DNA of 29,753 bases from a virus. Each line of letters opens with the position of its first letter. The first letter of the stretch is position 1. Both the position numbers and the translations under genes were made by a program. The stretch lies in the IMG/VR virus record IMGVR_UViG_3300033550_000024, positions 1-29,753 of that record. One strand, written 5' to 3'. Of the stretch, positions 3,970-20,171 are shown piece by piece. Below the pieces are notes generated by a model. It was not told the origin of the DNA. It made no database searches and saw only the letters and a program-made list of their open reading frames with translations.

Positions 3970-3998
3970 TAGACATCACAAGCCGCAGCTTGTATATT
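3970..3998 (+). promoter_or_regulatory. Rightward early promoter 2 with spacer operator
   Basis: TAGACA and TATATT are separated by 17 bases. The spacer holds the dyad ACAA-N8-TTGT (3978-3993), whose last T is the first base of the -10. This exact geometry recurs in the promoters at about 5320 and 10980, so I read it as a repressor site. The first rightward gene starts 39 bases downstream. Confidence 0.7.
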
Positions 3999-4036
3999 GA
4001 ACTCATCGAAAGCAAACAACCAAAGGGAATACGGAA

Positions 4037-4213
4037 ATGAACAACTTCAAAGCCCAAGACAAAGCACTGAAAGCAGCTCGCGCAGCAGTAAACGCGCTGA
4101 CCTTCGGCACCAGCGAATGGGAAGCAGCAATGCAGGTTGTTCGTGATCTCTGCGAGAAAGCAAACGCCGCCGACAACGCGATCCTGAACCATCGCTGCGA
4201 CTTCAGCCGGTGA
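4037..4213 (+). CDS. Small hypothetical protein, first rightward gene
   Basis: A 58-residue protein starts at an ATG preceded by AGGGAATACGGAA. It is helical and alanine-rich (KALKAARAAVNALTFGTSEWEAAMQ) and ends in HRCDFSR. As the first gene behind two strong promoters it should be among the earliest expressed, a common position for small host-takeover proteins. No domain is recognised, and the takeover idea rests on position only. Its stop overlaps a GTG start for the next gene. Confidence 0.65.
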   Translation: MNNFKAQDKALKAARAAVNALTFGTSEWEAAMQVVRDLCEKANAADNAILNHRCDFSR

Positions 4214-4362
4214 AGCCGGTTGTCCACTACCCTAGGGACGGGGTGACGTATATGAGAGGGCAATGCGGGGCGAATTCGATTAGCTCCTCTACCGATCTGA
4301 AACTCGTCACCTGTCCTGCTTGCTTGAAACTGCTCCGGAGTAACCCCGATGCCCAAGCCTAA
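4210..4362 (+). CDS. Small CPAC-motif protein
   Basis: A 50-residue frame opens with a GTG that overlaps the stop of the preceding gene (GTGA). It reads VKPVVHYPRDGVTYMRGQC, and later VTCPACLKLLRSNPD. The single CPAC pair plus the Cys at residue 19 could form part of a metal knuckle. Such short proteins with a TCPAC motif recur in Pseudomonas phages, as far as I recall. The next gene starts inside its last codons. Function unknown. Confidence 0.6.
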   Translation: MKPVVHYPRDGVTYMRGQCGANSISSSTDLKLVTCPACLKLLRSNPDAQA

Positions 4363-4471
4363 GAAACCCAAGATGTCCAAAGTCAACACCAGCGACTGCG
4401 CCAAAGGTCAGATGCACGAGCCGGCGGCACAGCGATACGTGAAAACCATGCCAGGAGGATTTATAGCGTGA
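4349..4471 (+). CDS. Small basic hypothetical protein
   Basis: A 40-residue protein begins with a lysine- and proline-rich stretch (MPKPKKPKMSKVNTSDC) and ends PGGFIA. The ATG lies within the preceding gene, and the stop overlaps the GTG of the following gene, so it is coupled on both sides. A ribosome site (CCGGAGTAACCCCG) sits just upstream. The charge suggests nucleic-acid or membrane surface contact, but nothing firmer can be said. Confidence 0.5.
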   Translation: MPKPKKPKMSKVNTSDCAKGQMHEPAAQRYVKTMPGGFIA

Positions 4472-4884
4472 GCCAGTGGATTAAATGCAGCGACAGGCTG
4501 CCGGAAGCGAAAGATGACACGGACACCGAAGTTATCTTGGCCGTGAAGAGGGCAAGCGGAAAGACCTACGTTTTTGCAGCCAGCTTTCTGCAGAACAAAG
4601 AGCTTTACAGCGAGGAGGACGATGCAGACGACGAGGGCCGCATCTACGTTACGGGCTGGTACGAATTGCGTGACGATCCTGAATACGACACCGCTTGGCA
4701 TCAGGTGCTTAATTCCGGTGACTCGGTAACTCACTGGATGCCTTTACCTGCGGCTCCAGATGAAGAGGCACCTCCTAAAGACTGCCCTGTATGCGACGGC
4801 TGGGGCTCTGTCAGTACCGGTATCGACGAAGCGCCTAGCACCCTATGCAAAGCGTGCGACGGCAACGGTAGTCTGCCCAAATGA
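4468..4884 (+). CDS. DUF551 protein with C-terminal DnaJ-like zinc pair
   Basis: A 138-residue protein with two parts. Residues 1-95 match DUF551, a common phage and prophage domain: WIKCSDRLPEAK at the start, a central GWYEL, and VTHWMPLP at the end. Residues 104-138 hold two CxxCxGxG-type units, CPVCDGWG and CKACDGNG, as in the zinc-binding region of DnaJ. Two units make one zinc site. The GTG start follows a strong AGGAGG site. DUF551 has no established function, and the zinc tail suggests a partner-binding role. I do not recall this pairing as common. Confidence 0.8.
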   Translation: MSQWIKCSDRLPEAKDDTDTEVILAVKRASGKTYVFAASFLQNKELYSEEDDADDEGRIYVTGWYELRDDPEYDTAWHQVLNSGDSVTHWMPLPAAPDEEAPPKDCPVCDGWGSVSTGIDEAPSTLCKACDGNGSLPK

Positions 4885-5054
4885 CCCTCCAATGCCCAAA
4901 GTGCGGTAACCCGGACGTGATACGTATGAGCAGCCTACGCATTATCCACTGCCCGGATTGCCATACCGAATCGCCCTGGCCGTTGAAGGACGGTCAGAAG
5001 CCCCTTGTGAATTCAAATCGAGGAGATAGGAAGAAATGCGAACCATCGAGCTAA
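4881..5054 (+). CDS. Small zinc-ribbon protein
   Basis: A 57-residue frame starts with an ATG that overlaps the stop of the DUF551 gene (ATGA). It has two Cys pairs, CPKCGN at residues 5-10 and CPDCHTE at 24-30, spaced as in a zinc ribbon, then a polar tail. Similar tiny ribbons in phages resemble NinF-like or transcription-factor ribbons, but a specific match cannot be claimed. The 3' end overlaps the next gene by 19 bases. Confidence 0.65.
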   Translation: MTLQCPKCGNPDVIRMSSLRIIHCPDCHTESPWPLKDGQKPLVNSNRGDRKKCEPSS

Positions 5055-5296
5055 ACGAAAGGGAGCTGCAGCTTTACCGTGACGCTCTCGACGTTGACGA
5101 AGCGCATACAGGCCCATCCATCCCACAGGAATGCTATCGCACAATGACCGGCATCCTACGGTCGAGAGGGTTAGTAGGATTCCCTGAAAAGGTAACGATT
5201 GAGTTCCGCGGCTGCTCCAAGAGCTACGAACTCCATTACTCCGCTGCGCACAGCCCGGATATCGACTACCGAAACGACCCTTATCTGAAACCCTAA
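5036..5296 (+). CDS. Hypothetical phage protein
   Basis: An 86-residue protein starts MRTIELNERELQLYRDAL after a good GAGGAGATAGGAAGAA ribosome site. The N-terminal half is helical; the second half looks like beta strand (KVTIEFRGCSKSYELHYS). No domain is recognised. It is the last gene before the promoter region at about 5320 and so closes the first rightward transcription unit, although I see no terminator behind it. Confidence 0.7.
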   Translation: MRTIELNERELQLYRDALDVDEAHTGPSIPQECYRTMTGILRSRGLVGFPEKVTIEFRGCSKSYELHYSAAHSPDIDYRNDPYLKP

Positions 5297-5313
5297 CCGT
5301 TCGTCGGACCTAC

Positions 5314-5342
5314 AAGCAATCGCAAGTTTCATGTTGTATAGT
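5314..5342 (+). promoter_or_regulatory. Internal rightward promoter with spacer operator
   Basis: A -10 of TATAGT (5337-5342) follows the dyad GCAA-N8-TTGT (5322-5337), placed exactly as in the promoters at 3970 and 10970. The -35 position reads AAGCAA, which is weak. The promoter may therefore be poor without an activator, or tuned by the dyad-binding protein. Confidence 0.5.
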
Positions 5343-5371
5343 GGCGTCACACAAATGCAGATAGGAGAAGG

Positions 5372-5620
5372 ATGATGTTCAGCCGATTGATCAAGTGGTT
5401 CAAGGGTCCGACCCCAGCGGAAGCATACGAGAACGGGCGCCGGGTAGCGCGAGAAGAAATAGCAAAAGCCGAGGATAAGTCCCGCGAAGCGGATCATCTT
5501 TGGAATATGGCCGGCGGCGGATTTAACGTCAATAAGACTGACCATGAATTCGACCGCGGGCTAACTGATCAGCTCCACGAAATGGGCTACCAAGCGCCCT
5601 ACCAAAACGGGCAATTCTGA
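5372..5620 (+). CDS. Small hypothetical protein
   Basis: An 82-residue protein starts MMFSRLIKWFKGPTPAEAYENGRR after AGGAGAAGG. The first dozen residues form a short amphipathic hydrophobic helix; the rest is polar and charged, with DKSREADHLWNMAGGGF in the middle. It is the first gene behind the promoter at 5314-5342. An inner ATG at 5375 is equally possible. No family is recognised; a membrane-surface association is conceivable from the N-terminus. Confidence 0.7.
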   Translation: MMFSRLIKWFKGPTPAEAYENGRRVAREEIAKAEDKSREADHLWNMAGGGFNVNKTDHEFDRGLTDQLHEMGYQAPYQNGQF

Positions 5621-5790
5621 TGAACCGCTTCAAACCCAATCAGACCGTTCGCATTAATGACACGCAGAGCGAGTACCACAAGTGCCTGGCGCGTGTCGTG
5701 AAGGTCGCTGAGAAGAGCTACGACGTGATCGTAGGGCCTACCACCATGCGCGTCGTCCCCGAACAACTGCTAGGAGTACGCAAGCCGTGA
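5620..5790 (+). CDS. Small hypothetical protein, KOW/SH3-like strand pattern
   Basis: A 56-residue protein reads MNRFKPNQTVRINDTQSEYH and later CLARVVKVAEKSYDVIVG, ending VVPEQLLGVRKP. The alternating short strands resemble a small SH3 or KOW-like barrel seen in many tiny phage proteins. The ATG overlaps the previous stop and the stop overlaps the GTG of the next gene. The fold is a guess from pattern; function unknown. Confidence 0.6.
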   Translation: MNRFKPNQTVRINDTQSEYHKCLARVVKVAEKSYDVIVGPTTMRVVPEQLLGVRKP

Positions 5791-5975
5791 GCCAAGTACG
5801 AGAAAACCTAATGTCGCGTGAGGGATACACGCCTTATTGCGGCAAAGATCGCTGCAGCTTCGGATGGCCTCGCACTACGTGGTACCACGGGCAATTCGAA
5901 TGTATGTGTGGATGGCGCTCTGAGTTCCCGGCAGAGTTTGTGGAACAGTACAAAGCGAAGTGGGGTAAGAAATGA
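5787..5975 (+). CDS. Cys-rich small protein, paralogue of the 13630 gene
   Basis: A 62-residue protein holds RENLM near the start, then PYCGKDRC and CMCGW, and FPAEFVEQYKAKW near the end. The same framework recurs in the protein at 13630-13926, so the phage carries two copies. The Cys pairs are spaced as in a treble-clef or ribbon zinc site. The GTG start overlaps the preceding stop. Function unknown; retention of two diverged copies suggests a useful but non-identical role. Confidence 0.7.
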   Translation: MSQVRENLMSREGYTPYCGKDRCSFGWPRTTWYHGQFECMCGWRSEFPAEFVEQYKAKWGKK

Positions 5976-6202
5976 TCACCCGCGCACAGGCTGAAGCATT
6001 ACTAACCCTGGCCGAGTCGCTGGAAGCGTGCGAGCGCAGCGGAGTTACCCTTGAAGGCGTAGCCGACCTAGTACATGGCGACAACGAATTGCTGGCATCG
6101 CTTGGCGACCCAATCAGTGGTATGGCAGTCCGTCTAGCGGTCAACGCGCTGATCCCAAAGACTGAGCAGACCTACGCCCTTAACTGGGAGGAGAGGCCGT
6201 AA
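5972..6202 (+). CDS. Hypothetical helical protein
   Basis: A 76-residue, mainly helical protein (MITRAQAEALLTLAESLEACERSG, later GDPISGMAVRLAVNALIP) overlaps its upstream neighbour by four bases and shares one base with the next gene. The composition is even and acidic, without metal or membrane motifs. I do not recognise a family. It sits in a coupled run of accessory genes, so it is probably expressed early. Confidence 0.65.
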   Translation: MITRAQAEALLTLAESLEACERSGVTLEGVADLVHGDNELLASLGDPISGMAVRLAVNALIPKTEQTYALNWEERP

Positions 6203-6270
6203 TGGACGACGCCGACTTCATGTTCCTGAGCCTCCTCCTGCTGATCCTGATCGGCTTCTATTTCGCATAA
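6202..6270 (+). CDS. Tiny single-span membrane peptide
   Basis: A 22-residue frame begins with an acidic MDDADF and continues as an unbroken hydrophobic stretch (FLSLLLLILIGFYF). That is one transmembrane helix with almost nothing outside it. The ATG shares a base with the preceding stop, and a GGAGGAGAGG site lies just upstream, which supports real translation. Phage membrane peptides of this size can modulate host envelope proteins; no specific role can be assigned. Confidence 0.55.
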   Translation: MDDADFMFLSLLLLILIGFYFA

Positions 6271-6282
6271 GGGAGTCCCAAC

Positions 6283-6468
6283 ATGCTTCAGCCACCTGTA
6301 ACTGACCTGGCACCATGGCGCCCCGGGCACTGGATCACACAGACCGGGTACGCGCTTAACGAAGACGATGTCGTCGTAGGCGTCAAGAAGGACAAGAAGC
6401 GGCAGATCGACATGATCGTGTCTGTTCGCAAAGTCGACTCAATGATTCGGAAGGGGTTCGGGAAATGA
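6283..6468 (+). CDS. Small hypothetical protein
   Basis: A 61-residue protein starts MLQPPVTDLAPWRPGHWITQ after GGGAGTCCCAAC. The second half is basic and strand-like (VVVGVKKDKKRQIDMIVSVRKVDSM). It ends in an overlap with the next gene. No domain is recognised. The basic face would suit nucleic-acid binding, but this is only a composition argument. Confidence 0.6.
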   Translation: MLQPPVTDLAPWRPGHWITQTGYALNEDDVVVGVKKDKKRQIDMIVSVRKVDSMIRKGFGK

Positions 6469-6815
6469 ATATTGATTGGGATGGAAAAGGTTTGCCGCCG
6501 GTTGGCGCTGAATGCGAATTCTGGCTATCCACTGACAATTGGCAGTTCGCTACGTGCGTAGCGCTCGATACCCTGGATGGTGTACCTGTTGCCGTAGTTC
6601 GGTATGACGGCGGATATTACGGGGCTTCTGCTAAGACTCTAGGCCCGATATCTAAAGAGCGAAAAGCGGAATTGCAACGCGAGAAGGATGCCGAAGAACT
6701 GGCGTTTATAGCCACGGGACACCGCGACCGCAGCAAAGATTGCTGGCTTTCAGTAGCTAAGGTTCTGCTTGACGCCGGCTATCGCAAATTCGAAATCGTC
6801 GAGGATGACGTATGA
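6465..6815 (+). CDS. Hypothetical phage protein (IDWDGKGLPPVG type)
   Basis: A 116-residue protein begins MNIDWDGKGLPPVGAECEF, an opening I recall from many Pseudomonas and enterobacterial phage proteins of unknown role. The N-terminal half is beta-rich with several tryptophans; the middle is a charged helix (KERKAELQREKDAEELAF); the C-terminus is short and mixed. It overlaps both neighbours by four bases. The CsrA-like gene follows directly. Confidence 0.7.
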   Translation: MNIDWDGKGLPPVGAECEFWLSTDNWQFATCVALDTLDGVPVAVVRYDGGYYGASAKTLGPISKERKAELQREKDAEELAFIATGHRDRSKDCWLSVAKVLLDAGYRKFEIVEDDV

Positions 6816-7096
6816 CAAATCTCGTGTTGACCCGTAAAGCCGGCCAGTCCGTTCGTCTTCTGATCGGCGACAAAACGGAATACGTCGAGATCCTCGATGT
6901 GACCGGCGGCTTCTGCAAATTCCGTTTGCTGTCCACCCTCCAGGTGGAACGCGTCCGGTTCCGCGACTCCATGCAAATTGCCGAGGGCGTATCAGTCTGC
7001 GTCGTTGACCTCGCCAAAGGCCATGCAAAGCTGAATTTCACCGCGCCGCGCGATGTTCACATCCTGCGTACTGAACTGATAAAGGAAGAAATCTGA
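6812..7096 (+). CDS. CsrA/RsmA-like RNA-binding protein with insertion
   Basis: A 94-residue protein reads as CsrA split by an insertion. Residues 4-11 (LVLTRKAG) match the CsrA first strand, including the RNA-contacting Leu and Arg. Residues about 60-92 (SVCVVDLAKGHAKLNFTAP, then RDVHILRTELIKEE) match the second half, including the AP-x-D/E-V and the Arg of the CsrA RNA-binding face (R86 here). Host CsrA is about 61 residues, and the extra 35 or so lie between these parts (about 22-58). CsrA proteins bind GGA motifs in mRNA leaders and change translation. A phage copy could reprogramme host or phage mRNAs, or compete with host RsmA; that is inference. It overlaps both neighbours within the operon. 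Confidence 0.7.
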   Translation: MTNLVLTRKAGQSVRLLIGDKTEYVEILDVTGGFCKFRLLSTLQVERVRFRDSMQIAEGVSVCVVDLAKGHAKLNFTAPRDVHILRTELIKEEI

Positions 7097-7506
7097 TGAA
7101 TAAGGGACCGGTTCACTACCATTTACGTGATTTTGCGGACAGCACAGGTGTAATAGTCGATGTTCGAAAATGGTACGTAAGCAGTGAAACGCCGTGCGGC
7201 TACTGGATCGTCAGCGAGTATTACTCCGACTACATCGGGCGTGAAGACCGGTGGTGCCAGAGCATCATTAAGCACAATCGCAAATGGACACCGAAGAAAT
7301 ACCCGAAGCGCTTCAGCCCTAATCTGAAGGACGCAGTGTTCTCGTTTCGCCGACGCAAAGCCGTACAGCTTTCGAAATTGGAATGGCAGCTCCAGCAAGC
7401 CCGACAGGTTGACGCGTTCCTGCAAACTTTGGACGACTCCACAGTTACCGAAGAGGGTTTCAACTGCGGTACTCCAGAAGAATGGCTCGGACTGCGTTGG
7501 GAATGA
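7096..7506 (+). CDS. Hypothetical phage protein
   Basis: A 136-residue protein has an aromatic N-terminal half (VRKWYVSSETPCGYWIVSEYYSDYIG), a basic middle (KWTPKKYPKRF, FRRRKAVQLSKLEWQLQQARQ) and an acidic tail. The basic stretch and helix suggest contact with nucleic acid or a host protein. It begins on the last base of the CsrA-like gene and ends in an ATGA overlap with the next. No family is recognised. Confidence 0.7.
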   Translation: MNKGPVHYHLRDFADSTGVIVDVRKWYVSSETPCGYWIVSEYYSDYIGREDRWCQSIIKHNRKWTPKKYPKRFSPNLKDAVFSFRRRKAVQLSKLEWQLQQARQVDAFLQTLDDSTVTEEGFNCGTPEEWLGLRWE

Positions 7507-7814
7507 ACCGCTTCCCATGCCGCTGTAGGTCTTGCGATGGCCGCAGAACGTTTACGCAGCTACCCGAGAACATGCGCAACGGTTGCAAGTGCAAAGCATG
7601 CCGGGAAGCACGAGCAAAAGGTATAGAGCCGATCGTGCATTGCGACTGCGGCGGCACGTACCGGGTAGACGTTTACAGGCTCAAGGTTGAACACAAGAAA
7701 TACGGCTGCCAGTGTTCGGGCTTTCCGTTCGACAACGGCACCCACCGCAAAGGCAGTTCCAGCCCCTCGAATGGGTGGTACTGCATCCATAACGTGAAAG
7801 GAGAAGGACGATGA
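7503..7814 (+). CDS. Multi-cysteine zinc-binding protein
   Basis: A 103-residue protein starts MNRFPCRCRSC at the ATGA overlap; an open frame seven codons longer exists but lacks support. Cys pairs recur: CRCRSC, CKCKAC, CDCGG and CQC, enough for two zinc sites of ribbon type. The strands between the pairs (GGTYRVDVYRLKVEHKKYGC) fit such a fold. It may bind nucleic acid or a transcription partner. The family is not recognised with certainty. Confidence 0.7.
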   Translation: MNRFPCRCRSCDGRRTFTQLPENMRNGCKCKACREARAKGIEPIVHCDCGGTYRVDVYRLKVEHKKYGCQCSGFPFDNGTHRKGSSSPSNGWYCIHNVKGEGR

Positions 7815-8140
7815 ATGAATTTAAAGGCACACCAGGACCGTGGTTCCATCACGGCCCATCTGGTTCACAACACACCATGGGCGGCTACATTAATTCCTCG
7901 CCGGAGAGGAATAGTTCTAACGTTGTGTGTTCGGTCTACGGAACGAATGGCCAGCCGCACGAGGAAAACGCGAAGCTCATCGCCGCTGCGCCGGAACTAT
8001 TAGAAGCCCTGGCCGCCGCTTCCAAGAAATTGGAAGACGTAAAGAGTACTTTTCACGGAGGGTTCTACACGGGCCGCGAGTTGTATACCGACCTGTTCGC
8101 CAAGATCGACGGCGCCTTAGCCAAAGCCCTCGGTAAATAG
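7811..8140 (+). CDS. Hypothetical phage protein (TPGPW...ENAKLIAAAPELLEAL)
   Basis: A 109-residue protein carries two signatures seen again and again in phage and prophage proteins: GTPGPW near the N-terminus and ENAKLIAAAPELLEAL in the centre. A helical tail follows. The role of this group is not established. It closes the second rightward transcription segment, and a promoter follows about 25 bases after its stop. Confidence 0.75.
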   Translation: MNEFKGTPGPWFHHGPSGSQHTMGGYINSSPERNSSNVVCSVYGTNGQPHEENAKLIAAAPELLEALAAASKKLEDVKSTFHGGFYTGRELYTDLFAKIDGALAKALGK

Positions 8141-8165
8141 CTACAAGTATTAGCAACTAAACCAC

Positions 8166-8204
8166 TTGACATACCTTGTGCCGCTCTCTACCATCTGCGG
8201 CACA
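8166..8204 (+). promoter_or_regulatory. Rightward promoter for the nuclease/SSB module, with flanking dyad
   Basis: A consensus -35 TTGACA (8166-8171) and -10 TACCAT (8189-8194) lie 17 bases apart. A perfect 8-base inverted repeat, TGTGCCGC (8177-8184) and GCGGCACA (8197-8204), brackets the -10 element. It could be an operator or a hairpin. This differs from the ACAA-N8-TTGT dyad of the other promoters, so this module may be timed separately. The first gene starts at 8230. Confidence 0.65.
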
Positions 8205-8229
8205 CCTTAACCAAAAAGGAACTTGCAAC

Positions 8230-8649
8230 ATGTCGATCGAAACCCTGATCCAAGCCCATACCGAAGCGCTGCTCGCGAACACCGAAGCCGTCAAGCTGCT
8301 GACCCTCTCCCTGGCCGGCCGTACGCCTACTGCTGAAAAGCCGAAGGTGGAGAAAGTCGAGAAGGTTAAGCAGGAAGAAAAGAAAGAAGAGCCGAAGGTT
8401 GGCGTTGTGGTCACCGACGAAAAAGGAGATGCCGTTATCGAAGAACCGGCAGCAGTCCCTTACGAAACTGTCCGCGCACTGGTGCTCAAACTGGCCCCGA
8501 CGCAGCGTGACTCGATCAAGGCGCTGAACGCTAAGCACGGTATTGCCAACTTGAAAGTCCTGCTGGACAAGGAAGACGACTTCAGCACCGTGAACGACCA
8601 GGCGAAGCTGGAAGCCGTCTACGCCGATCTGCAGGCACTGGAGGCGTAA
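8230..8649 (+). CDS. Hypothetical protein upstream of the RecB-like nuclease
   Basis: A 139-residue protein from the ATG at 8230, after AAAAAGGA; an 18-codon longer frame crosses the promoter and is unlikely. It has an N-terminal helix (SIETLIQAHTEALLANTEAVKLL), a Lys/Glu-rich linker (PKVEKVEKVKQEEKKEEPK), and a compact helical C-terminal domain (VRALVLKLAPTQRDSIKALNAKHG). Proteins of this build often precede the DUF2800 nuclease in phage genomes. Its place directly before the nuclease and ssDNA-binding genes suggests a recombination or replication accessory. Confidence 0.75.
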   Translation: MSIETLIQAHTEALLANTEAVKLLTLSLAGRTPTAEKPKVEKVEKVKQEEKKEEPKVGVVVTDEKGDAVIEEPAAVPYETVRALVLKLAPTQRDSIKALNAKHGIANLKVLLDKEDDFSTVNDQAKLEAVYADLQALEA

Positions 8650-8652
8650 GCC

Positions 8653-10107
8653 ATGGCCCATGCATTCTTCGCGCCGTCCGGCGCGCCTGCCGCGATGCTT
8701 TGTAATGTGAAGCCGTGGCGGGAAAAGGAGTTCCCCGATATGGGTAACGATGCTTCTGACGAAGGTACAGCAGCGCACTTCCTGCTTGAGCAATGCTTGA
8801 CACAGCAAAACGAAGCAAAAGCTTTTCAAGGTCTGCGAATCAAAGTGGAAAATGGTAACGCCGAGTTCCACACGTCCGGTGCTTACCCGGTCGGGCTCGA
8901 CATGATCCATGAGATACAGAAGACCCTGGACGTGATCTACTCGCTGGCTGATGGCGCTACTGTGTACCCGGAACAAGTGTTGTCGATTGAGTTCATCACC
9001 GGCGAAGAAGGCGCTACCGGCACCAGCGATACGGTAATCATCAAAGGCGATACGGCAATAATTGCCGATTTGAAATATGGAAGAGGCGTCCAGGTCTTCG
9101 CAGAAGGCAACGAGCAGTTGCTGATCTACGGTGCTTCAGCGGTAGCGGACTTCGACGCGCTTGGCGAGATCGAGCATGTAGAGCTGCACATCCTGCAACC
9201 CCGTCTCAACCACTTCGACGTTTGGAAGTTGTCGGTTGCCGAGATGAACGAGCGTATTGAACAGATCCGCCAAACGTCCAAGCACATCCTGGCCGGTCCT
9301 GAAGGTTTGACAGCAGTGCCAGGCGACAAGCAGTGCCGATTCTGCAAAGCGTCCGCGACCTGTCCTGAGCGAACTGCTTTCACCATGGAGCTAATCGTCG
9401 GCGAGTTCGTCGATCTCGACAAAGGCTTCATCAAAGTAGAAATGCCGCAGGCTGAAAAGCTGTTGGCTCAAGCATTCGACGTGAAGCCCGCGGCGATTAC
9501 ATTTCAGCACGAGATCGACGACGGTGCGCAGAACCATATCGCTGCCTGCTTCACCGTCAAAAAGCCGAACATTCGGCCAAGTCTTGAAGCGGCGGAAGCC
9601 AAGTTGCCCGACGCATCGGATGAGCGCTTGGCGACCCTGATGGACGCGGCCGATATGATCGAAGGCTTTGCCAAAGCGGTACGTGCTGAGGTTGAGCGGC
9701 GTCTCCTGGCAGGTAAGTTCACCGATGCCCGATACAAGCTGGTCGAAGGTCGGCAGGGAGCGCGTAGTTGGACCAGCGAGGAGGAAGCTGAAGCCGCGCT
9801 GAAGGCGATGCGGTTGAAGGTCGACCAAATGTACGACTTCAAGCTGATCAGCCCCACAACGGCGGAGAAGGTCTTGAAGGAAGCGAACCCACGCAAGTGG
9901 AACAAACTGCAGCCATTGATTGGCCGTAGCGATGGCAAGCCATCCGTAGCACCGGCCAGCGACAAGCGTCCCGCTTTGAGTATGGCGATTGCCGACAGCT
10001 TCGAGGTTCTGACTGAAGAAGATGTCAAAGAAGTTTTCGACCGTTACGAAGCATCAAAAGCTGCAGAACAATCCGTCGCCGAAGATAACTTCGACGATCT
10101 CGTGTAA
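8653..10107 (+). CDS. DUF2800 RecB/Cas4-like exonuclease with iron-sulfur ligands
   Basis: A 484-residue protein of the DUF2800 group, related to RecB and Cas4 nucleases. Visible motifs are EGTAAH (37-42), GTSD with D126, ADLKYGRG (138-145; D139 and K141 of the D...(D/E)xK site) and QLLIYG (155-160). Cys228, Cys231 and Cys237 (CRFCKASATC), together with Cys17 near the N-terminus, have the spacing of the 4Fe-4S ligands in Cas4 and AddB. The remaining 240 residues are an added C-terminal part. It probably resects DNA ends for recombination and works with the ssDNA-binding protein coded next. All catalytic residues I know for this fold appear present. Confidence 0.85.
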   Translation: MAHAFFAPSGAPAAMLCNVKPWREKEFPDMGNDASDEGTAAHFLLEQCLTQQNEAKAFQGLRIKVENGNAEFHTSGAYPVGLDMIHEIQKTLDVIYSLADGATVYPEQVLSIEFITGEEGATGTSDTVIIKGDTAIIADLKYGRGVQVFAEGNEQLLIYGASAVADFDALGEIEHVELHILQPRLNHFDVWKLSVAEMNERIEQIRQTSKHILAGPEGLTAVPGDKQCRFCKASATCPERTAFTMELIVGEFVDLDKGFIKVEMPQAEKLLAQAFDVKPAAITFQHEIDDGAQNHIAACFTVKKPNIRPSLEAAEAKLPDASDERLATLMDAADMIEGFAKAVRAEVERRLLAGKFTDARYKLVEGRQGARSWTSEEEAEAALKAMRLKVDQMYDFKLISPTTAEKVLKEANPRKWNKLQPLIGRSDGKPSVAPASDKRPALSMAIADSFEVLTEEDVKEVFDRYEASKAAEQSVAEDNFDDLV

Positions 10108-10138
10108 TTCAAACCTAAACTGATACTGAGGATTTACC

Positions 10139-10902: not shown

Positions 10903-10923
10903 CCGCTAAAGCAACACCAGAAG

Positions 10924-10946
10924 GCCCGGCTTGTGTCGGGCTTTTT
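10924..10946 (+). terminator. Rho-independent terminator after the SSB module
   Basis: A GCCCG/CGGGC stem (10924-10928 and 10937-10941, 8-base loop) is followed by five T. It lies 22 bases past the winged-helix gene and 24 bases before the next promoter, so it separates two transcription units clearly. Confidence 0.8.
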
Positions 10947-10969
10947 GTTGACCGCTCGTCGGGATACGC

Positions 10970-10998
10970 AAGACAATACAAGTAATGCGTTGTACATT
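10970..10998 (+). promoter_or_regulatory. Rightward promoter with spacer operator
   Basis: A -35 of AAGACA and a -10 of TACATT are 17 bases apart. The dyad ACAA-N8-TTGT (10978-10993) occupies the spacer and shares its last base with the -10, as at 3970 and 5314. It drives the accessory block starting at 11035. Confidence 0.65.
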
Positions 10999-11034
10999 TG
11001 CTTTAACGAAAACAAACGCAGGGAGTAACGGGAA

Positions 11035-12552: not shown

Positions 12553-12570
12553 TCAATTGGAGATTTTGGA

Positions 12571-13633: not shown

Positions 13634-13926
13634 GCATCATTCGCGAAAACCTTATGCGCGAGAAAGAATATCGCCCGTACTGCGGAAACGGTTACTGCGG
13701 CGGGAATATGCCGCGCACCGTATGGACCGGAAAGCAATTCAAGTGTTTTAGCTGCCACTGGATCTCAAAATTTCCCGATGACTTTATCGCCGAGTACAAG
13801 GCCAAATGGTATCCGACCGAACCACTCCACCCCCACAACGACGGCCTCGACGAATACCGGCAGCCCGTGCACGTCGGTGAACTTGATCCGGCGCAACGGT
13901 TGGCGCTGGCCATGGGTGGAAAATGA
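13630..13926 (+). CDS. Cys-rich protein, paralogue of the 5787 gene
   Basis: A 98-residue protein begins MSIIRENLMREKEYRPYCGN and holds PRTVWTGKQFKCFSCHW and FPDDFIAEYKAKW. The first 60 residues align without large gaps to the protein at 5787-5975, sharing the RENLM, PYCG, PRT-W, F-C-x-x-C/G-W and YKAKW elements. A unique C-terminal 36-residue tail follows (HPHNDGLDEYRQPVHVGELD). Start chosen at the ATGA overlap. Zinc binding is likely; function unknown. Confidence 0.75.
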   Translation: MSIIRENLMREKEYRPYCGNGYCGGNMPRTVWTGKQFKCFSCHWISKFPDDFIAEYKAKWYPTEPLHPHNDGLDEYRQPVHVGELDPAQRLALAMGGK

Positions 13927-14147
13927 GATCGAAATATGGACAGATCTGCGCAAAGCATCCTGAGCTAGAAGGTCGTCGTTACATTCCTAGCAACGGTTGC
14001 ATCAAATGTCATAACGAACTTTCCAGAGCGAATCACGCACGTCGCAGAGAACTGCTACAAGAAGTGCTTGAAGCAGCACACCAAGCGCGCCAGTGGTCCA
14101 CTCGGTTAGATGAAGCTTTGAAGGCGTACGGTTATGGCGAGGCCTGA
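13923..14147 (+). CDS. KHPEL-type zinc-finger protein, copy 1
   Basis: A 74-residue protein has C-A-KHPELEGRRYIPSNGC-I-K-C near the N-terminus, that is, a Cys and His before and a CxxC after a conserved PEL-x-G loop, like the zinc knuckle found beside HNH cores. A basic helix follows (RANHARRRELLQEVLEAAHQ). A second protein with the same motif is coded at 16715-16864. The likely action is nucleic-acid binding; the catalytic HNH part is absent. Confidence 0.7.
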   Translation: MRSKYGQICAKHPELEGRRYIPSNGCIKCHNELSRANHARRRELLQEVLEAAHQARQWSTRLDEALKAYGYGEA

Positions 14148-14277
14148 GATCCCCTTGGCCGACCTGGCCTTTGCTTATGAACTTCGCTGCCAGGGTTTCT
14201 CATGGAAAACCATAACGCGCCACGTATCTTGGGAACGCACCGCGCTTATCAAGGGCATCGCCCGGCGCATGAATTAG
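14134..14277 (+). CDS. Small HTH-like protein
   Basis: A 47-residue protein reads IPLADLAFAYELRCQGFSWKTITRHVSWER, then TALIKGIARRMN. The pattern of a helix, a C/GxSWKxI turn helix and a recognition-type helix is that of a short helix-turn-helix as in resolvase or Sigma-70 region 4-like domains. It starts inside the preceding gene. It may be a DNA-binding regulator of minimal size, not proven. Confidence 0.6.
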   Translation: MARPEIPLADLAFAYELRCQGFSWKTITRHVSWERTALIKGIARRMN

Positions 14278-14287
14278 GAGAAGGGAA

Positions 14288-14584
14288 ATGTCAGAACAAA
14301 TAACCTGGACGCACGTCGACAAACTGGTCCGCAAGATGCACGACGAGAAAGGCATGTTGCCTATCGGCTCTACGGACGCCGAAGTCGCCCACAGTTTCAT
14401 CAAGTGGCAGGAACGTAACCGCGACATTCTCTTGGCAAAGCTCGAGGAACATGATCGGGAAATCGTCCAGTTGCGCTATCAGCTGGACGATTTAAAAAAT
14501 AAGCCGGTAGGGAAAACCAAAGCACGTCTTGACAAACTTGAGTGCCAAGTCGCGCGGCTAATAGAATTGGCCAAGCAAGAATGA
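14288..14584 (+). CDS. Hypothetical coiled-coil protein before the polymerase
   Basis: A 98-residue protein starts after AGGAGAAGGGAA and consists of a short mixed N-terminal part (ITWTHVDKLVRKMHDEKGML) and then one long helix with heptad character (LLAKLEEHDREIVQLRYQLD, then ARLDKLECQVARLIELA). It overlaps the polymerase exonuclease gene in an ATGA arrangement, so it is translated with it. A polymerase accessory role is possible from position only. Confidence 0.65.
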   Translation: MSEQITWTHVDKLVRKMHDEKGMLPIGSTDAEVAHSFIKWQERNRDILLAKLEEHDREIVQLRYQLDDLKNKPVGKTKARLDKLECQVARLIELAKQE

Positions 14585-15654
14585 ACCTCGACAAATGCAT
14601 TTTCCTCGACACCGAGACCTTCTGCGAAACGCCGATCAACAACGGGACGCACCGTTACGCAGAAGGCGCCGAGATCATCATGTGGCAGTGGGCGGTCGGC
14701 GATGGGGAAGTAATTATTCGTGATGGGGATGAGGATGTTTCGGATCTGATGGAGATGATCGCGAGCGGAAAGTATACGATCGTTATCCACAACTCTGCTT
14801 TCGACAGAACAGTGATTTTGCATGCAACTGGGGTAGAGATTCCGATAGAGGATGTCTTCGATACGATGGTCTGCGCTATGGCGCATTCACTGCCAGGCGC
14901 TTTGGAGAAGCTGGGGGACATACTCGGGATTGCTAAGGACAAAGCTAAGGACAAAGCCGGTAAGGCGTTGATCCAGTTGTTCTGCAAACCGCGGCCAAAG
15001 AATCAGATCCTACGCCGGGCGACTAAATTAACGCATCCAGTCGAGTGGGAAGCTTTTCGCGAGTACGGGCGTCTCGACATCGAGGCGATGCGCGAGATTT
15101 ACAAGAAGCTGCCGCGGTGGAATTACCGGGCGGCCGAAAAGGAGTTGTGGCACCTTGACCAGCGTATCAATGAACGCGGCGTGCTAATGGATCTAGAGCT
15201 CTCCCACGCCGCTATCCGCGCCTCAGATCGTGCGCAGAAGGAATTAGCGCGCCAGGCAAAGCACATGACAGATGGCGCCGTAGAAAGCGCCAACCAGCGC
15301 GATAGGATGCTAGAGCACATCCTCGAGGCCTACGGCATCCAACTGGCCGACCTGAAGGGCAGCACCGCCGAGAAGGTGCTCGAGGATGAAGACATCCCGC
15401 GTGAGCTCAAAGAATTGCTCATGGTGCGCATCGAGGCCAGTAAAACCAGCGTCTCGAAGTACCGGCGCGTATTAAACGGGGTTAGCTCAGACGGCCGCTT
15501 GCGCGGCCTTCTTGCGTTCTGCGGAGCTCTCCGCACGGGACGGTGGGCAGGCCGTCTTCTTCAACCGCAGAACATGAGGAGAAGTTCGCTCAGCGACATC
15601 GAAGTAGAACGAGCTATTGAAGCGTTGCTCGCCGACGCAGAGGATTTGGTATGA
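14581..15654 (+). CDS. Family A DNA polymerase, part 1: exonuclease and thumb/fingers start
   Basis: A 357-residue protein equals the first part of a phage PolA. The 3'-5' proofreading domain shows all DEDDy motifs: FLDTET (8-13), NSAFD (71-75), and YGRLD with Y162 and D166. After it comes the polymerase entry region with ELLMVRIEASKTSVSKYRRV and LRTGRWAGRLLQPQNM, which in full-length enzymes leads straight into motif A. Here the frame ends after AEDLV in an ATGA overlap, and motif A opens the next gene. A minus-one reading shift at this point would rejoin both parts in frame. An upstream extension to 14542 is not used, since the ATG at 14581 overlaps the previous stop. Confidence 0.9.
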   Translation: MNLDKCIFLDTETFCETPINNGTHRYAEGAEIIMWQWAVGDGEVIIRDGDEDVSDLMEMIASGKYTIVIHNSAFDRTVILHATGVEIPIEDVFDTMVCAMAHSLPGALEKLGDILGIAKDKAKDKAGKALIQLFCKPRPKNQILRRATKLTHPVEWEAFREYGRLDIEAMREIYKKLPRWNYRAAEKELWHLDQRINERGVLMDLELSHAAIRASDRAQKELARQAKHMTDGAVESANQRDRMLEHILEAYGIQLADLKGSTAEKVLEDEDIPRELKELLMVRIEASKTSVSKYRRVLNGVSSDGRLRGLLAFCGALRTGRWAGRLLQPQNMRRSSLSDIEVERAIEALLADAEDLV

Positions 15655-16643
15655 CAAGCGTTATGGAAATGTGTGCCAGCGCTGTGCGCGGCGTGTTCAT
15701 CTGCCCGCCCGGCAAAAAACTGGTGATAGCCGACTTGGCAGGTATAGAAAACAGGGTACTCGCCTGGCTGGCCGGTGAGTCTTGGAAGATCGACGCTTTC
15801 CGGGAGTTCGACGCAGGGCGCGGCGCGGACATGTATAAGCTGGCCTACGCGAAAGCATTCGGCATCGACCCGAGTCAAGTATCAAAAGACCAGCGTCAGA
15901 TCGGCAAGGTAAAAGAGCTCATGCTAGGGTACGCCGGCGGTGTAGGGGCGTACCTTACTGGAGCTCTTACATACAGGATCGACCTCGAGCAGATGGCCGA
16001 AGGCGCCTACGACTCGATCCCTGCTGACGTTCTAGCCGAGGCCGCTGATTTCCTCGAGTGGCAGCTCAGTCAGGGTAAAAGCCAATACGGCTTGAGCGAT
16101 CGTGCGTTCATTGTATGCGATAGCTTCAAGCGCCTGTGGCGCGCCACCAATCCTAACATTGCCTCTTGGTGGAAAGAGCTCGAGCTCGTCTGCATCCAGG
16201 CAGTGAACAACCCGGGGCAGACCTACACGAACCGGATGCACAAGATCCGCCGAGACGGAGCGTGGCTGCGGATCATGCTGCCATCCGGTCGGTACCTGTG
16301 CTACCCGTCGCCACGCGTTGAGGAAGGCGGCGGTCTGACCTATATGGGCGTCAACCAGTACACAAGGAAGTGGGAGCGCCTGCGTACCTACGGCGGCAAG
16401 ATCGTCGAGAACATCTGCCAGGGGGTCGCCCGCGATGTCCTAGCCTCTTCCATGCAGCCGATTGAATCCGCCGGCTACGAAATCGTTCTGACCGTCCACG
16501 ACGAGATCATCAGCGAAGCGCCGGACACCGACGAGTACACGCATGAGCGCCTGGCCGAACTGATGTCCGCTGGTTGCGACTGGACAGAAGGCCTACCGCT
16601 CGCTGCAGCCGGCTTCGAAGCGTATCGCTACCGGAAAGGTTAA
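15651..16643 (+). CDS. Family A DNA polymerase, part 2: palm and fingers catalytic subunit
   Basis: A 330-residue protein carries all polymerase motifs: motif A DLAGIENRVLAWLA (28-41), motif B region QRQIGKVKELMLGYAGG (81-97) and motif C TVHDEI (281-286). It has no exonuclease. Its first 14 residues (MTSVMEMCASAVRG) continue the homologous sequence of full-length polymerases without a gap, so nothing seems lost at the junction. With the preceding gene it should rebuild a complete replicative polymerase. The catalytic Asp of motifs A and C are intact, so it is not a decayed fragment. Confidence 0.9.
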   Translation: MTSVMEMCASAVRGVFICPPGKKLVIADLAGIENRVLAWLAGESWKIDAFREFDAGRGADMYKLAYAKAFGIDPSQVSKDQRQIGKVKELMLGYAGGVGAYLTGALTYRIDLEQMAEGAYDSIPADVLAEAADFLEWQLSQGKSQYGLSDRAFIVCDSFKRLWRATNPNIASWWKELELVCIQAVNNPGQTYTNRMHKIRRDGAWLRIMLPSGRYLCYPSPRVEEGGGLTYMGVNQYTRKWERLRTYGGKIVENICQGVARDVLASSMQPIESAGYEIVLTVHDEIISEAPDTDEYTHERLAELMSAGCDWTEGLPLAAAGFEAYRYRKG

Positions 16644-16650
16644 GAAAAGG

Positions 16651-16704
16651 TTGAGTACAAGCCGAATCTAGGGATACTATCTAGATTCTACGGTTTCTAG
16701 ATAG
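16651..16704 (+). promoter_or_regulatory. Rightward promoter overlaid by CTAG palindromes
   Basis: TTGAGT (16651-16656) and TACTAT (16675-16680) are 18 bases apart. Three CTAG-centred sites start at 16668, 16681 and 16697. They build two mutually exclusive inverted repeats: GAATCTAG/CTAGATTC (16664-16671, 16681-16688) and CTATCTAG/CTAGATAG (16677-16684, 16697-16704). They cover the -10 and the start region, so they may be operators or alternative leader hairpins. The next gene starts at 16715. Confidence 0.6.
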
Positions 16705-16714
16705 GTTAAATGTG

Positions 16715-16864
16715 ATGCGCGAACAAGTATATTTTGGTCGGCTTTGCCCGAAGCACCCCGAGCTAAAGGGCGAGCGCTGGATCAAGTCCTACCGCTGCGT
16801 CGAATGCCTGCGGATCTACCAGAAGTCATACCGCGATGCGAAGAAGGAGAAGGCCTGTGTCTGA
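16715..16864 (+). CDS. KHPEL-type zinc-finger protein, copy 2
   Basis: A 49-residue protein reads GRLCPKHPELKGERWIKSYR, then CVECLRIYQKSYRDAKKEK. The Cys-x-x-His-PEL-x-G...C-x-x-C framework is shared with the protein at 13923-14147, so this is a second copy, with a shorter basic tail. It is the first gene behind the CTAG promoter, and no strong ribosome site is seen; a GTG at 16712 is an alternative start. The next gene starts in its last codons. Confidence 0.65.
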   Translation: MREQVYFGRLCPKHPELKGERWIKSYRCVECLRIYQKSYRDAKKEKACV

Positions 16865-17108
16865 CACCGTGAGCATTTTCGAAAGGTTCTCCGGCCTTCA
16901 AGAGTGGCCGGCAGAGATCGCTCATCTCAAAGGCAAAAAGCTGTTCCGCAAGAAGGACAATGGCCAGTACATCATTCGGCATCCGAGCGGCCAAACAATC
17001 GGCGGTAAACCTGCCGCGTACCTTGAACCCGCCGGCTGCGACTGGGAAGCACGCAGCCACTGGAAGACTCACGCCAAGATCCTTACCGACTTTGTGGTGA
17101 AGTCATGA
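16857..17108 (+). CDS. Hypothetical phage protein
   Basis: An 83-residue protein from a GTG at 16857 that overlaps the preceding stop and follows AGGAGAAGG; an ATG at 16836 in frame would add a basic MRRRRRP stretch. It reads SIFERFSGLQEWPAEIAHLK, then KKLFRKKDNGQYIIRHPSG, and may be a small strand-rich domain. No family is recognised. It precedes the homing endonuclease in a coupled way. Confidence 0.6.
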   Translation: MSDTVSIFERFSGLQEWPAEIAHLKGKKLFRKKDNGQYIIRHPSGQTIGGKPAAYLEPAGCDWEARSHWKTHAKILTDFVVKS

Positions 17109-17641
17109 CGCCGACCCTAAAGGGCTTCACGCGCGAGTATTTGGCGTCGCTGTTCTCCTATGATCCTGAGACAGGATTGATTACTCGCTTGGTTCGCAGA
17201 AGTCGTAACGCACTCGTAGGGGATGTGATCGACTGTTTGCATAGCGCCGGGTATTTCCATACGCAACTAAACGGCAAGCGTCTTTTAGCGCACCGCTTGG
17301 CCTACTTTCTTCACACCGGCGAGACGCCTCAGGAAGTCGACCACAAAGATCTCAATCGGCAAAACAACAGGTTCGAAAACCTGCGCGGAGCTAGCAGCTC
17401 CCTCAACAAATACAATATCCCGCTAAAGAGCAACAACACTTCCGGCTTCAAAGGTGTGCACTACTGCAAAAGTAAACGCAGGTTCACCGCGCAGATCCAA
17501 GTGGACGGTAAGTACATTCACCTCGGACGCTTCAAGACCGCCGAGGAAGCCGCACGGATCTACGATGCGGCAGCAGTAGAGGCCGTTGGTGAATTCGCCT
17601 TGACCAACGAAAAGATGGGTTTGCTTAAGGAGTGCGCGTGA
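17105..17641 (+). CDS. HNH-AP2 homing endonuclease
   Basis: A 178-residue two-domain protein. Residues about 58-95 are an HNH_3-type nuclease core (LAHRLAYFLHTGETP, EVDHKDLNRQNNRFENLR) with the DH and the closing N residues. Residues about 113-167 are an AP2-type DNA-binding domain (SGFKGVHYCKSKRRFTAQIQ, then HLGRFKTAEEAARIYDAAAV). This combination marks free-standing phage homing endonucleases that spread by cutting intron- or gene-less copies of their target site. It sits between the polymerase and VRR-NUC genes, a typical insertion place, and overlaps both neighbours by a few bases, so it is well fitted into the operon. Confidence 0.9.
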   Translation: MTPTLKGFTREYLASLFSYDPETGLITRLVRRSRNALVGDVIDCLHSAGYFHTQLNGKRLLAHRLAYFLHTGETPQEVDHKDLNRQNNRFENLRGASSSLNKYNIPLKSNNTSGFKGVHYCKSKRRFTAQIQVDGKYIHLGRFKTAEEAARIYDAAAVEAVGEFALTNEKMGLLKECA

Positions 17642-17955
17642 TGCTGGAAAGAGACATTGAAGCGTATTTGGTGAAACGGTGTAAGGAAATAGGGGCTCTT
17701 TGTGACAAATTTGTGTCGCCTCAGCGTCGTTCGGTGCCTGATCGGATGATCACCTTCAGCGGGCGCGTGTTGTTTGTTGAGCTGAAAGCGACCGGCAAAA
17801 AGCCTACCGAAGCCCAGGTGCGCGACCACGAGCGTCGCCGTGCTGCGGGTGCCGAAGTGGTTTGGCTGGACAGCAAAGAGCAGGTCGATCACATGCTTTT
17901 CTTCCTCTGTCTGAAAAGCCCGGTGCTGGCACTGGAAGATTGGAGCGTGGCGTAA
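17641..17955 (+). CDS. VRR-NUC domain nuclease
   Basis: A 104-residue stand-alone VRR-NUC protein. Core residues are visible: PDRM (33-36, D34), the ELK of VLFVELKA (47-49) and Q59 in EAQVRDHERR, which fit the D...ExK...Q site of this PD-(D/E)xK family. In phages such small nucleases process branched or replication intermediates and are regularly coded beside an SNF2 helicase, as here. I chose the ATG at 17641, 9 bases after AAGGAG; a GTG three codons upstream is in frame. Its stop shares a base with the helicase start. Confidence 0.9.
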   Translation: MLERDIEAYLVKRCKEIGALCDKFVSPQRRSVPDRMITFSGRVLFVELKATGKKPTEAQVRDHERRRAAGAEVVWLDSKEQVDHMLFFLCLKSPVLALEDWSVA

Positions 17956-19355
17956 TGGCAATTGACTTCGTACCGCACGCGTACCAGCACCTCATCATCG
18001 ATCACATCCAGCGGGTAAAGCGTTGCGCTATATGGGCTAGCATGGGTACTGGGAAAACTCCGTCCACCTTGACGGCGCTAGAAGACCTGAGTCTGACAGA
18101 AGACGTGTACCCCGTACTGGTTATCGCCCCGAAGCGAGTAGCGCGGACAACCTGGACGAACGAAGCCCGCAAGTGGAACCACTTGAAGCACCTGCGCGTA
18201 GTGTTCGTAGGGGGTTCTCTCAAAGAGCGAATCGCAGCTCTCAGGATCAAAGCCGACATATATACAACGAACTTCGAACAGCTCCCTTGGTTGATTGAAT
18301 ACCTTGGGGATAGATGGCCGTTTCCAACAGTTGTGCCCGACGAAGCGACTAAGTTGAAAGGGTTTCGCTTACGGCAGGGCACGCAGCGCGCCAAGGCACT
18401 CGCCCGAGTCGCCCACACCAAGATCAAGCGCATCATCCTGTTGACCGGTACGCCCAGTCCTAACGGCTTACAGGATCTGTGGGGGCAGATGTGGTTCGTC
18501 GACAAAGGCGATCGCCTTGGCCGAACGTTCGACGCCTTCAAGCAGCGCTGGTTTCGCGCTTCGCACACCGGGTTTGGGGTAGAGGCGACCGACCAAGCAC
18601 AAGGCGAGATCCAGGCAGCACTTAAAGACGTGTGCATCACGATCGACGCCGCTGACTGGTTCGCACTGGAAGAGCCAATCATCAACCGCATCATGGTGGA
18701 GCTGCCGGCATCGGCCAAGGTCATGTACAAGCAAATGGAGAAGCAATTCTTCATGGAGCTGGAAGGCGGACAGCAGATCGAAGCGCTGAACGCTGCGGCT
18801 AAGTCGATGAAGCTGCTGCAGATTGCGAACGGCGCGGCGTACTTGGAAGGTGGCGAACAGTGGGAAAAGATCCACGACGAGAAGCTGGACGCACTCGAAG
18901 AGATCATCGAGGAAGCCGCCGGTATGCCGGTTCTTACCGCGTACCACTTCAAGAGCGACCTGGCACGCCTCAAGAAGCGTTTCCCTGACGGTATTGACCT
19001 GTCGGCCAAAGGTGGGCTGGAACGTGCTCAAGCAGGCGAGGGACGCGTTTGGTTCGGCCACCCGGCGTCGATGGGGCACGGCGTGGACGGTTTGCAGTAC
19101 CACACGAACATCATGGCGTTCTTCGGGTATAGCTGGTCGCTGGAAAACTACCTGCAGTTCATTGAACGCATCGGGCCTACCCGTCAGTTGCAGGCCGGGT
19201 TCAAGCGCCCGGTGTTCATGCACATGATCATGGCAGCGGACACCGTGGACGAACTGGTACTGGAGCGGCTGCACAGCAAACGCGAGGTACAGGATGTGCT
19301 GATGGAAGCGATGAAAGAACGCGGGTTCAAAACAATCACAGAGGATGCAGCGTAA
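17955..19355 (+). CDS. SNF2-type DEAD-like helicase
   Basis: A 466-residue superfamily 2 ATPase. Motif I is ASMGTGKTP (28-36), Ia IAPKRVA (57-63), II VVPDEATKLKG (126-136), III LLTGTPSPNG (162-171), V FGHPASMGHGVDGLQ (367-381), VI QFIERIGPTRQ (401-411). The Walker B variant PDEAT is usual in this phage branch. It lacks accessory domains of chromatin-type SNF2 proteins. With the VRR-NUC protein coded just before, it probably remodels replication forks or recombination intermediates. The frame upstream to 17862 is not used because the ATG at 17955 follows the VRR-NUC stop directly. Confidence 0.9.
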   Translation: MAIDFVPHAYQHLIIDHIQRVKRCAIWASMGTGKTPSTLTALEDLSLTEDVYPVLVIAPKRVARTTWTNEARKWNHLKHLRVVFVGGSLKERIAALRIKADIYTTNFEQLPWLIEYLGDRWPFPTVVPDEATKLKGFRLRQGTQRAKALARVAHTKIKRIILLTGTPSPNGLQDLWGQMWFVDKGDRLGRTFDAFKQRWFRASHTGFGVEATDQAQGEIQAALKDVCITIDAADWFALEEPIINRIMVELPASAKVMYKQMEKQFFMELEGGQQIEALNAAAKSMKLLQIANGAAYLEGGEQWEKIHDEKLDALEEIIEEAAGMPVLTAYHFKSDLARLKKRFPDGIDLSAKGGLERAQAGEGRVWFGHPASMGHGVDGLQYHTNIMAFFGYSWSLENYLQFIERIGPTRQLQAGFKRPVFMHMIMAADTVDELVLERLHSKREVQDVLMEAMKERGFKTITEDAA

Positions 19356-19585
19356 TGGCTATCAGAAAAGCGAAAGACGGAACCTTCTGCATCTCGGCGT
19401 ACGGCTGCTGGCGCCCCGGGGTTTACGAAAGCGAAAAGGCGTGTCGAATTGCGCAGCGCCGTACTGACGAAGCACTTCAGTTCCTTCAGGATCGCGCGAA
19501 TTTCCGCGAACCCGGCGGCGTAGGCGGAACCATTACGGAGCAAGACCTGGCCGACTTCAAACCAACTAAAGGATACCCGACATGA
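19355..19585 (+). CDS. Hypothetical phage protein
   Basis: A 76-residue protein begins MAIRKAKDGTFCISAYGCWR, then PGVYESEKACRIAQRRTDEA. It shares one base with the helicase stop and four with the next gene. The pattern of a short beta hairpin with Arg/Lys followed by a YESEKACR helix resembles an AP2-like or integrase-arm-type DNA-binding fold, but this is a weak resemblance. Function unknown. Confidence 0.65.
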   Translation: MAIRKAKDGTFCISAYGCWRPGVYESEKACRIAQRRTDEALQFLQDRANFREPGGVGGTITEQDLADFKPTKGYPT

Positions 19586-19878
19586 GCGATAAACAACCTT
19601 GCCCAAGACACGATGTCTACGACATCACCTGTCAGCATTGCTTCGCGCTCGGCGCGCCACCTAAGAAAGCGCTAGACACTCAGATCGGCGGCGGACACTA
19701 CAAAGATATGGCTATCCAGCCGATGGAATACTCGATGAAGAACGGCTTGGACGCTTGCCAGCATACGGCGATCAAGTACATCAGCCGGTTCCGTGCCAAG
19801 GGCGGCGTCGAGGACTTGCGCAAAGCGAAGCACGTCATCGACATGCTGATCCAGTTCGAAGAGGAGAAAGGTCAATGA
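19582..19878 (+). CDS. DUF3310 protein
   Basis: A 98-residue protein whose residues 33-98 match DUF3310: GGGHYKDMAIQPMEYSM, then GLDACQHTAIKYISRFRAKG, then VEDLRKAKHVIDMLI. Such proteins are widespread in phages, are sometimes called nucleotide kinase-like, and have an unclear role; a link to nucleotide metabolism near replication genes is often assumed. An N-terminal Cys/His knuckle (CPRHDVYDITCQHC) adds a likely zinc site, which the core family does not need. It overlaps both neighbours. Confidence 0.85.
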   Translation: MSDKQPCPRHDVYDITCQHCFALGAPPKKALDTQIGGGHYKDMAIQPMEYSMKNGLDACQHTAIKYISRFRAKGGVEDLRKAKHVIDMLIQFEEEKGQ

Positions 19879-20078
19879 GCTGGCCATCGGTTCACCGCTT
19901 GTGCCGCCACTGCGGAGGGGTAAGTACCAGCGCGCGGGAATGGGCGACGGGCGCCCAGCTTCGCAGGCTTGATAAATGCGACCTTTGCAGCGCCCCTCTT
20001 ACAGCTGAGGACGACTACGATACCTACAGGCTGCCACCTGCGCACTCCGAGGAAAAGTCAAATGAAGTACAACGCTGA
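19875..20078 (+). CDS. Small zinc-ribbon protein
   Basis: A 67-residue protein with CRHCGG at 10-15 and CDLCSAP at 35-41 separated by a helix (REWATGAQLRRLDK), then an acidic tail. The pairs would bind one zinc. It starts in an ATGA overlap with DUF3310; the longer open frame upstream is out of step with that gene. Function unknown. Confidence 0.6.
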   Translation: MSWPSVHRLCRHCGGVSTSAREWATGAQLRRLDKCDLCSAPLTAEDDYDTYRLPPAHSEEKSNEVQR

Positions 20079-20139
20079 GAAAGTCGAATTCTTCGGCGCT
20101 CGCATGGTGCGGGCCGCGAAAAGGAGTGAAGCGGAGTAA
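20062..20139 (+). CDS. Possible 25-residue basic peptide
   Basis: A 25-residue frame (KYNAEKVEFFGARMVRAAKR) starts inside the end of the zinc-ribbon gene behind GAGGAAAAG. It ends just before the next promoter. Short and amphipathic; retained mainly because the ribosome site is good and the gap would otherwise be empty. Could be chance. Confidence 0.35.
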   Translation: MKYNAEKVEFFGARMVRAAKRSEAE

Positions 20140-20142
20140 GGG

Positions 20143-20171
20143 TTGACTACAAGAGAAAGGTTGTATATCCT
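20143..20171 (+). promoter_or_regulatory. Rightward promoter for the methyltransferase unit, with spacer operator
   Basis: TTGACT and TATCCT are 17 bases apart (TATATC at 20164 is an alternative -10). The dyad ACAA-N8-TTGT (20149-20164) fills the spacer. Its last T is the first base of the TATATC form, as at 3970, 5314 and 10970. Confidence 0.65.

Follow-up and report, generated by a model that had tools for sequence, protein, structure and literature searches.

In the window, i.e. the whole 29,753-nt stretch of viral DNA that was analyzed, rightward promoters spread across 16 kb share a 16-bp dyad, ACAA-N8-TTGT or a close form of it. Conservation of this dyad, its strand, its position and its separability from the promoter indicate that these promoters very likely form a shared regulon. 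The dyads are best explained as operators of the Cro/YdaS-type helix-turn-helix (HTH) protein whose gene adjoins the first of them, and through which four rightward gene blocks would be turned down together in infection, a reading to which we assign a probability of about 0.6. The location of the dyad inside the 17-bp spacer points to repression.

Binding by the HTH protein, its repressive effect and its timing, which we infer, would proceed as follows. The protein would be made from a leftward operon along with the primase-helicase. Its dimer would bind NCAAG-N6-(C/G)TTGT and block RNA polymerase at the promoters P_A, P2, P_B and P4 (Table 1), which are read as early and middle promoters. The gene blocks begun by these promoters (early small genes; CsrA-like/DUF2800/Enc34-type SSB; DNA polymerase; methyltransferase) would then fall jointly as infection proceeds, early and replication operons being damped in lytic growth in the manner of lambda Cro at PR and PL. 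A readable regulatory map of an uncultured phage lineage is thus proposed from sequence alone, with operon starts, a likely regulator and a predicted operator. If true, it would describe control by a Cro-type protein in the absence of a lysogeny switch, and co-evolution of repressor and operator could be tested on the natural variants already at hand (helix changes, half-site losses, GCAA form).

A dyad in the spacers of rightward promoters

Exact copies of ACAA-N8-TTGT are found three times in the window, in P_A, P_B and P4, as announced in the preliminary description of this DNA, and nowhere else in it. The expected number is 0.31 and none of 100 shuffles reached three copies. When one mismatch was allowed at any position, nine matches were obtained for 8.2 expected. 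This count is at chance level and the GCAA variant of P2, also proposed at the outset, is therefore not credible by count alone and requires outside evidence. The relatives provide it: the promoter CAAGCAATCGCAAGTTTCRTGTTGTATAGT and close variants of it, with GCAA, are kept in 21 of them and the ACAA form is found with a TAGCAA/TAGTAA -35 box in two more (G009 and G013), so that the variant can be regarded as real. The four listed sites are all intergenic, whereas gaps between genes represent only 6.6% of the arm (3851 to 21620) on our own gene list.

Table 1. Dyad-bearing promoters, control-region half-sites and associated genes in the window
Feature	Position	Strand	Description
P_A	3969..3998	+	TAGACA 3970-3975, 17-bp spacer with dyad ACAAGCCGCAGCTTGT 3978-3993, TATATT 3993-3998
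P2	5313..5342	+	AAGCAA, 17-bp spacer with variant dyad GCAAGTTTCATGTTGT 5322-5337, TATAGT
P_B	10969..10998	+	AAGACA 10970-10975, 17-bp spacer with dyad ACAAGTAATGCGTTGT 10978-10993, TACATT 10993-10998
P_C	~16649..16680	+	decayed fifth copy, GTTGAGTACAAGCCGAATCTAGG; intact in 18 relatives
P4	20142..20171	+	TTGACT 20143-20148, dyad ACAAGAGAAAGGTTGT 20149-20164 abutting -35, TATCCT 20166-20171
Half-sites ATACAA/ATACAA/TTGTAT	3882..3916 (3882, 3894, 3911)	.	leftward control region
HTH protein	3315..3629	-	Cro/YdaS-type helix-turn-helix protein, 104 aa, candidate dyad binder (Pfam and model)
Primase-helicase	1326..3311	-	PriCT_2 + AAA_25; downstream of HTH gene, leftward operon

The last T of the dyad was initially described as the first base of the -10 hexamer at every promoter. 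This holds for P_A, P2 and P_B, with their 17-bp spacers, and fails for P4. The better promoter fit at the latter (TTGACT-17-TATCCT) also has a 17-bp spacer, in which the dyad stops one base short of the -10. Near-identical copies of P4 occur in G015 and G028 and changed ones, still similar, in L121 and L116; its arrangement corresponds to a distinct second promoter class in the relatives. Since a simple sigma-70 scan was at chance overall (8 vs 8.9), the promoter calls rest on conservation. In most relatives the HTH gene is flanked by a dyad promoter homologous to P_A. P_B occurs in 24 records, in several of which its sequence is identical, and the intact P_C of the relatives, which reads GTTGACTACAAGTCGAATCTTGCATAAGCT or differs little from it, is located some 12 kb to the right of the HTH gene. 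Just 3' of the -10 of P_A, P2 and P_B, about 6 bases downstream, a recurrent A(T/A)CGAAAnCAAA or TCACACCAA-like sequence is observed in many relatives, where the transcript likely starts.

The ATACAA/TTGTAT half-sites reported in the divergent control region are indeed present, at a spacing other than N8. The two closest relatives have them unchanged, and conservation is partial in others. By inspection, a leftward promoter is probably located in this segment, with TATGGT on the - strand as its -10. This region contains half-sites and no 16-bp dyad, which counts against the proposed reading in that autoregulation of the HTH gene is left unexplained.

Recurrence in related phages

The comparison was made on 31 IMG/VR records with 57-100% identity in the HTH protein, amounting to 980 kb with the window. 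As these relatives were retrieved through the HTH gene or the SSB gene, the fact that no close phage without the HTH gene was found applies to a set defined in this way. The N8 spacing is outlying, with 62 copies in 980 kb that are not independent events (many relatives have near-identical sites), vs mostly 1-15 at other spacings and 15 at N8 in the reversed control. Lesser peaks at N13 (43) and N18 (25) were considered as other motifs and rejected. They mostly correspond to P_A, P_B and P2 read in another register: in P_A and P_B, the TTGT is matched with the ACAA of the -35 (AGACAA), and in P2 with an ACAAG located upstream of the promoter.

The matrix scan of the phage and its relatives suggested in the preliminary description was performed with a promoter-plus-dyad matrix derived from 31 distinct sites, all dyad-bearing. 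It gave 75 matches, all rightward, with none on the opposite strand and 0-1 in shuffles. Dyad promoters recur in about thirty relatives and the site is conserved at the promoters of related phages. A check independent of the dyad used promoters picked by hexamers and 17-bp spacing only. The core CAA-N8-TTG occupied one fixed place in 45 of the 61 distinct rightward (A/T)AG-type promoters. Among the TTGAC-type promoters, eight out of nine contained the dyad, again in a constant location, two bases closer to the -35. Of 21 promoters picked in the same way on the other strand, 0-1 contained the core or the dyad. The inner bases showed no symmetry past the outer NCAA/TTG core; position 5 was complementary in 22 of 48 cases, as predicted from the column make-up. 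A DNA search of named phages returned no match, and a search of host genomes (one genome per species) yielded only a 47% primase relative, on two MAG contigs, and three weaker matches.

The candidate regulator and the nature of the site

The HTH protein, named first candidate in the preliminary description, is likely the regulator of the dyad promoters and is the best candidate for this function. It matches the Pfam family YdaS_toxin (PF15943; E 4.5e-9, 36.5 bits, cut-off 30) and scores 26.2 against P22_Cro (PF14549), under the cut-off of 30.2. Its AlphaFold model (pLDDT 86) has a Cro-like fold. The closest PDB structures are Xfaso 1 Cro and N15 Cro, with a TM of 0.83 by target length for Xfaso 1 Cro, though at a Foldseek E of 4.5e-3. 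Gln56 and Gln59 of the recognition helix are invariant in a 13-row alignment. The gene is present in all 14 records above 40 kb used for gene comparison and encodes the sole HTH protein found in all long relatives. The generic HTH_3 model had no match above its curated cut-off in these records, the HTH protein of the window included, and its weak matches were mostly this protein and its counterparts.

Solely to examine whether the dyad and the HTH gene occur together, the whole viral collection was searched with the promoter-dyad pattern; at least 119 stretches matched, mostly by chance. Among the matches listed, two or more copies were found only in L142, L162, L164 and L198, all from phages of the HTH group; two of these stretches, L162 and L198, derive from G008 and G010, and both of the latter encode the HTH protein. 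Just upstream of the genes of distant orthologs, ACAA(G/C) half-sites are more numerous than expected (5 vs 0.67 in L131; 6 vs 1.03 in L133; 3 vs 0.57 in the cI-cro gap of Ab31). Against this assignment, Caulobacter phage GB2A, which has an ortholog, contains no such dyad in 30 kb and no extra half-sites upstream of the gene. Upstream of the ortholog of L131, nested inverted repeats CCACAAGCAAAT...ATTTGCTTGTGG surround ACAAGTATTTACTTGC (L131:1910-1960). Two HTH paralogs were observed in one phage in G026 and G031 (L164, L142) and in the contig of L103/L104.

Two clades of the HTH protein (G020/25/27/28/29/30 and G015/16/18) bear on this assignment. In both, the right half-site has disappeared from the promoter next to the HTH gene (spacers TGGCAACTATAAGACCG and AAGCAAGAAAACACAAT), G014 being left out of the count because it is truncated before P_A. 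Five members have Gln60 changed to His in the helix. Wherever the P_B region is present, its dyad is retained in phages with an altered helix and a lost P_A dyad. This invariance speaks against the HTH protein and for another phage protein, without a recognizable HTH, as the binder, the Cro-like protein then governing only the divergent control region. The many conserved small proteins of no known family would leave room for such a binder. However, where the helix is typical, the dyads of P_A and P_B are the same, half-sites adjoin the gene in several distant orthologs, and none of nine small proteins scanned matched a DNA-binding regulator family, a missing match being weak evidence. We consider this alternative unlikely.

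The dyad could also be a promoter recognition element, read by a phage-altered RNA polymerase or another sigma factor, or the site of a MerR-type activator bound between -35 and -10. Its conservation together with the hexamers and its constant rightward orientation would agree with such a function. Nevertheless, dyad and promoter can be separated. The two promoter classes differ by 2 bp in the register of the dyad, which is therefore not part of the core promoter. In the two clades mentioned above, the promoter at the P_A place retains TAGACA, the 17-bp spacer and a TATATT/TAGATT box without the full dyad. Two further conserved promoters, P_D (leftward, structural genes of relatives) and P_E (8166), have no dyad. 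Taken together, the register shift, the half-site losses and the dyad-free promoters indicate that the dyad is an added site. MerR-type promoters have spacers of 19-20 bp, vs 17 bp here. The activator and sigma-element readings were not retained, given the spacer length, the register of the dyad and the promoters that lack it, and appear quite unlikely; the dyad is best read as an operator that would compete with RNA polymerase.

The two dyad-free promoters have features of their own. P_E (8165-8208) is a rightward TTGACA-17-TACCAT found in at least 22 relatives, with an inverted repeat TGTGCCGC-N12-GCGGCACA spanning its -10. One pair of the arms partly covaries, from C-G to T-A in three distinct sequences, and is broken or G-T in three others. 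P_D, e.g. at G003:38321, is a conserved GTTGACA CTTGTG... TA(A/G)AGT.

A host regulator could use the dyad and keep the phage early genes under host control, symmetric sites of such length being typical of host dimeric regulators. A host site would however be expected in other, unrelated phages that infect this host, whereas repeated copies are confined to the HTH phage group among the pattern matches listed; this possibility is very unlikely. Chance resemblance among promoters, with which the one-mismatch count in the window would agree, deserves almost no credit and is already refuted by the conservation of the site, with variable inner bases, in about thirty relatives.

Life style and comparison with known systems

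The preliminary description proposed that one repressor would silence four blocks over 16 kb. The shared rightward regulon is strongly supported; silencing of the prophage type is not. No S24/CI-type peptidase (PF00717) or resolvase (PF00239) was found in 22 records and no tyrosine integrase (PF00589) in 17 records, which may be fragments. The records of 44-54 kb have the same core genes. No close prophage was found in the one-genome-per-species host collection, and the elements of a lambdoid CI/Cro switch, an opposed CI repressor and an integrase, were not seen in the records searched. As no integrase, resolvase or CI-type peptidase was found, a role in lysogeny is unlikely and a Cro-like down-modulation of the lytic cycle fits better than prophage silencing. 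To a circuit based on Cro only, in which a lineage without integrase or CI would time its lytic development with a single Cro-type protein and one operator in rightward promoter spacers, we would give slightly less than even odds.

The operators of P1 C1 and the conserved inverted repeats of phiC31 constitute dispersed-operator regulons of phages that serve immunity. As in these phages and with the stoperators of cluster A mycobacteriophages (PMC9283540, PMC6550527), one type of site is repeated through the genome, the same operator-like site being found at several separated promoters of the window. The dispersed operators of P1, phiC31 and cluster A serve temperate-phage immunity, whereas the sites described here lie in rightward promoter spacers of phages without recognized lysogeny genes.

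The closest known systems are lambda-type Cro proteins of the same fold and family, in particular the all-helical Cro of N15/phiKO2 and YdaS of CP-933P. The Cro of phiKO2 binds a 16-bp operator (PMC4997575), and YdaS of CP-933P is a Cro analogue that represses PR and PL (PMC8630535). As with N15/phiKO2 Cro and CP-933P YdaS, operators that are here predicted overlap early promoters by the gene (PMC4997575, PMC8630535), and the predicted operator has the 16-bp length of those of phiKO2/N15. The half-sites differ: NCAAG here, TA-N10-TA in N15/phiKO2 and GTTTAGTAA repeats in CP-933P. Unlike lambda-type Cro at OR/OL, no cI partner, integrase or lysogeny module was found here, and the sites are single and spread across promoters instead of clustered in two control regions. 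The operator of the 434 repressor and Cro, ACAA-N6-TTGT, has an identical outer half-site but a different spacing, N6 (14 bp) vs N8 (16 bp), and the protein is distant (fold match E 0.7). Some recognition-helix positions that are Gln in the HTH protein are also Gln in the 434 repressor and Cro.

A CsrA-like protein is encoded in the early region at 6812-7096 (PF02599, E 2.5e-12), and related genes are present in 12 of the 14 long relatives.
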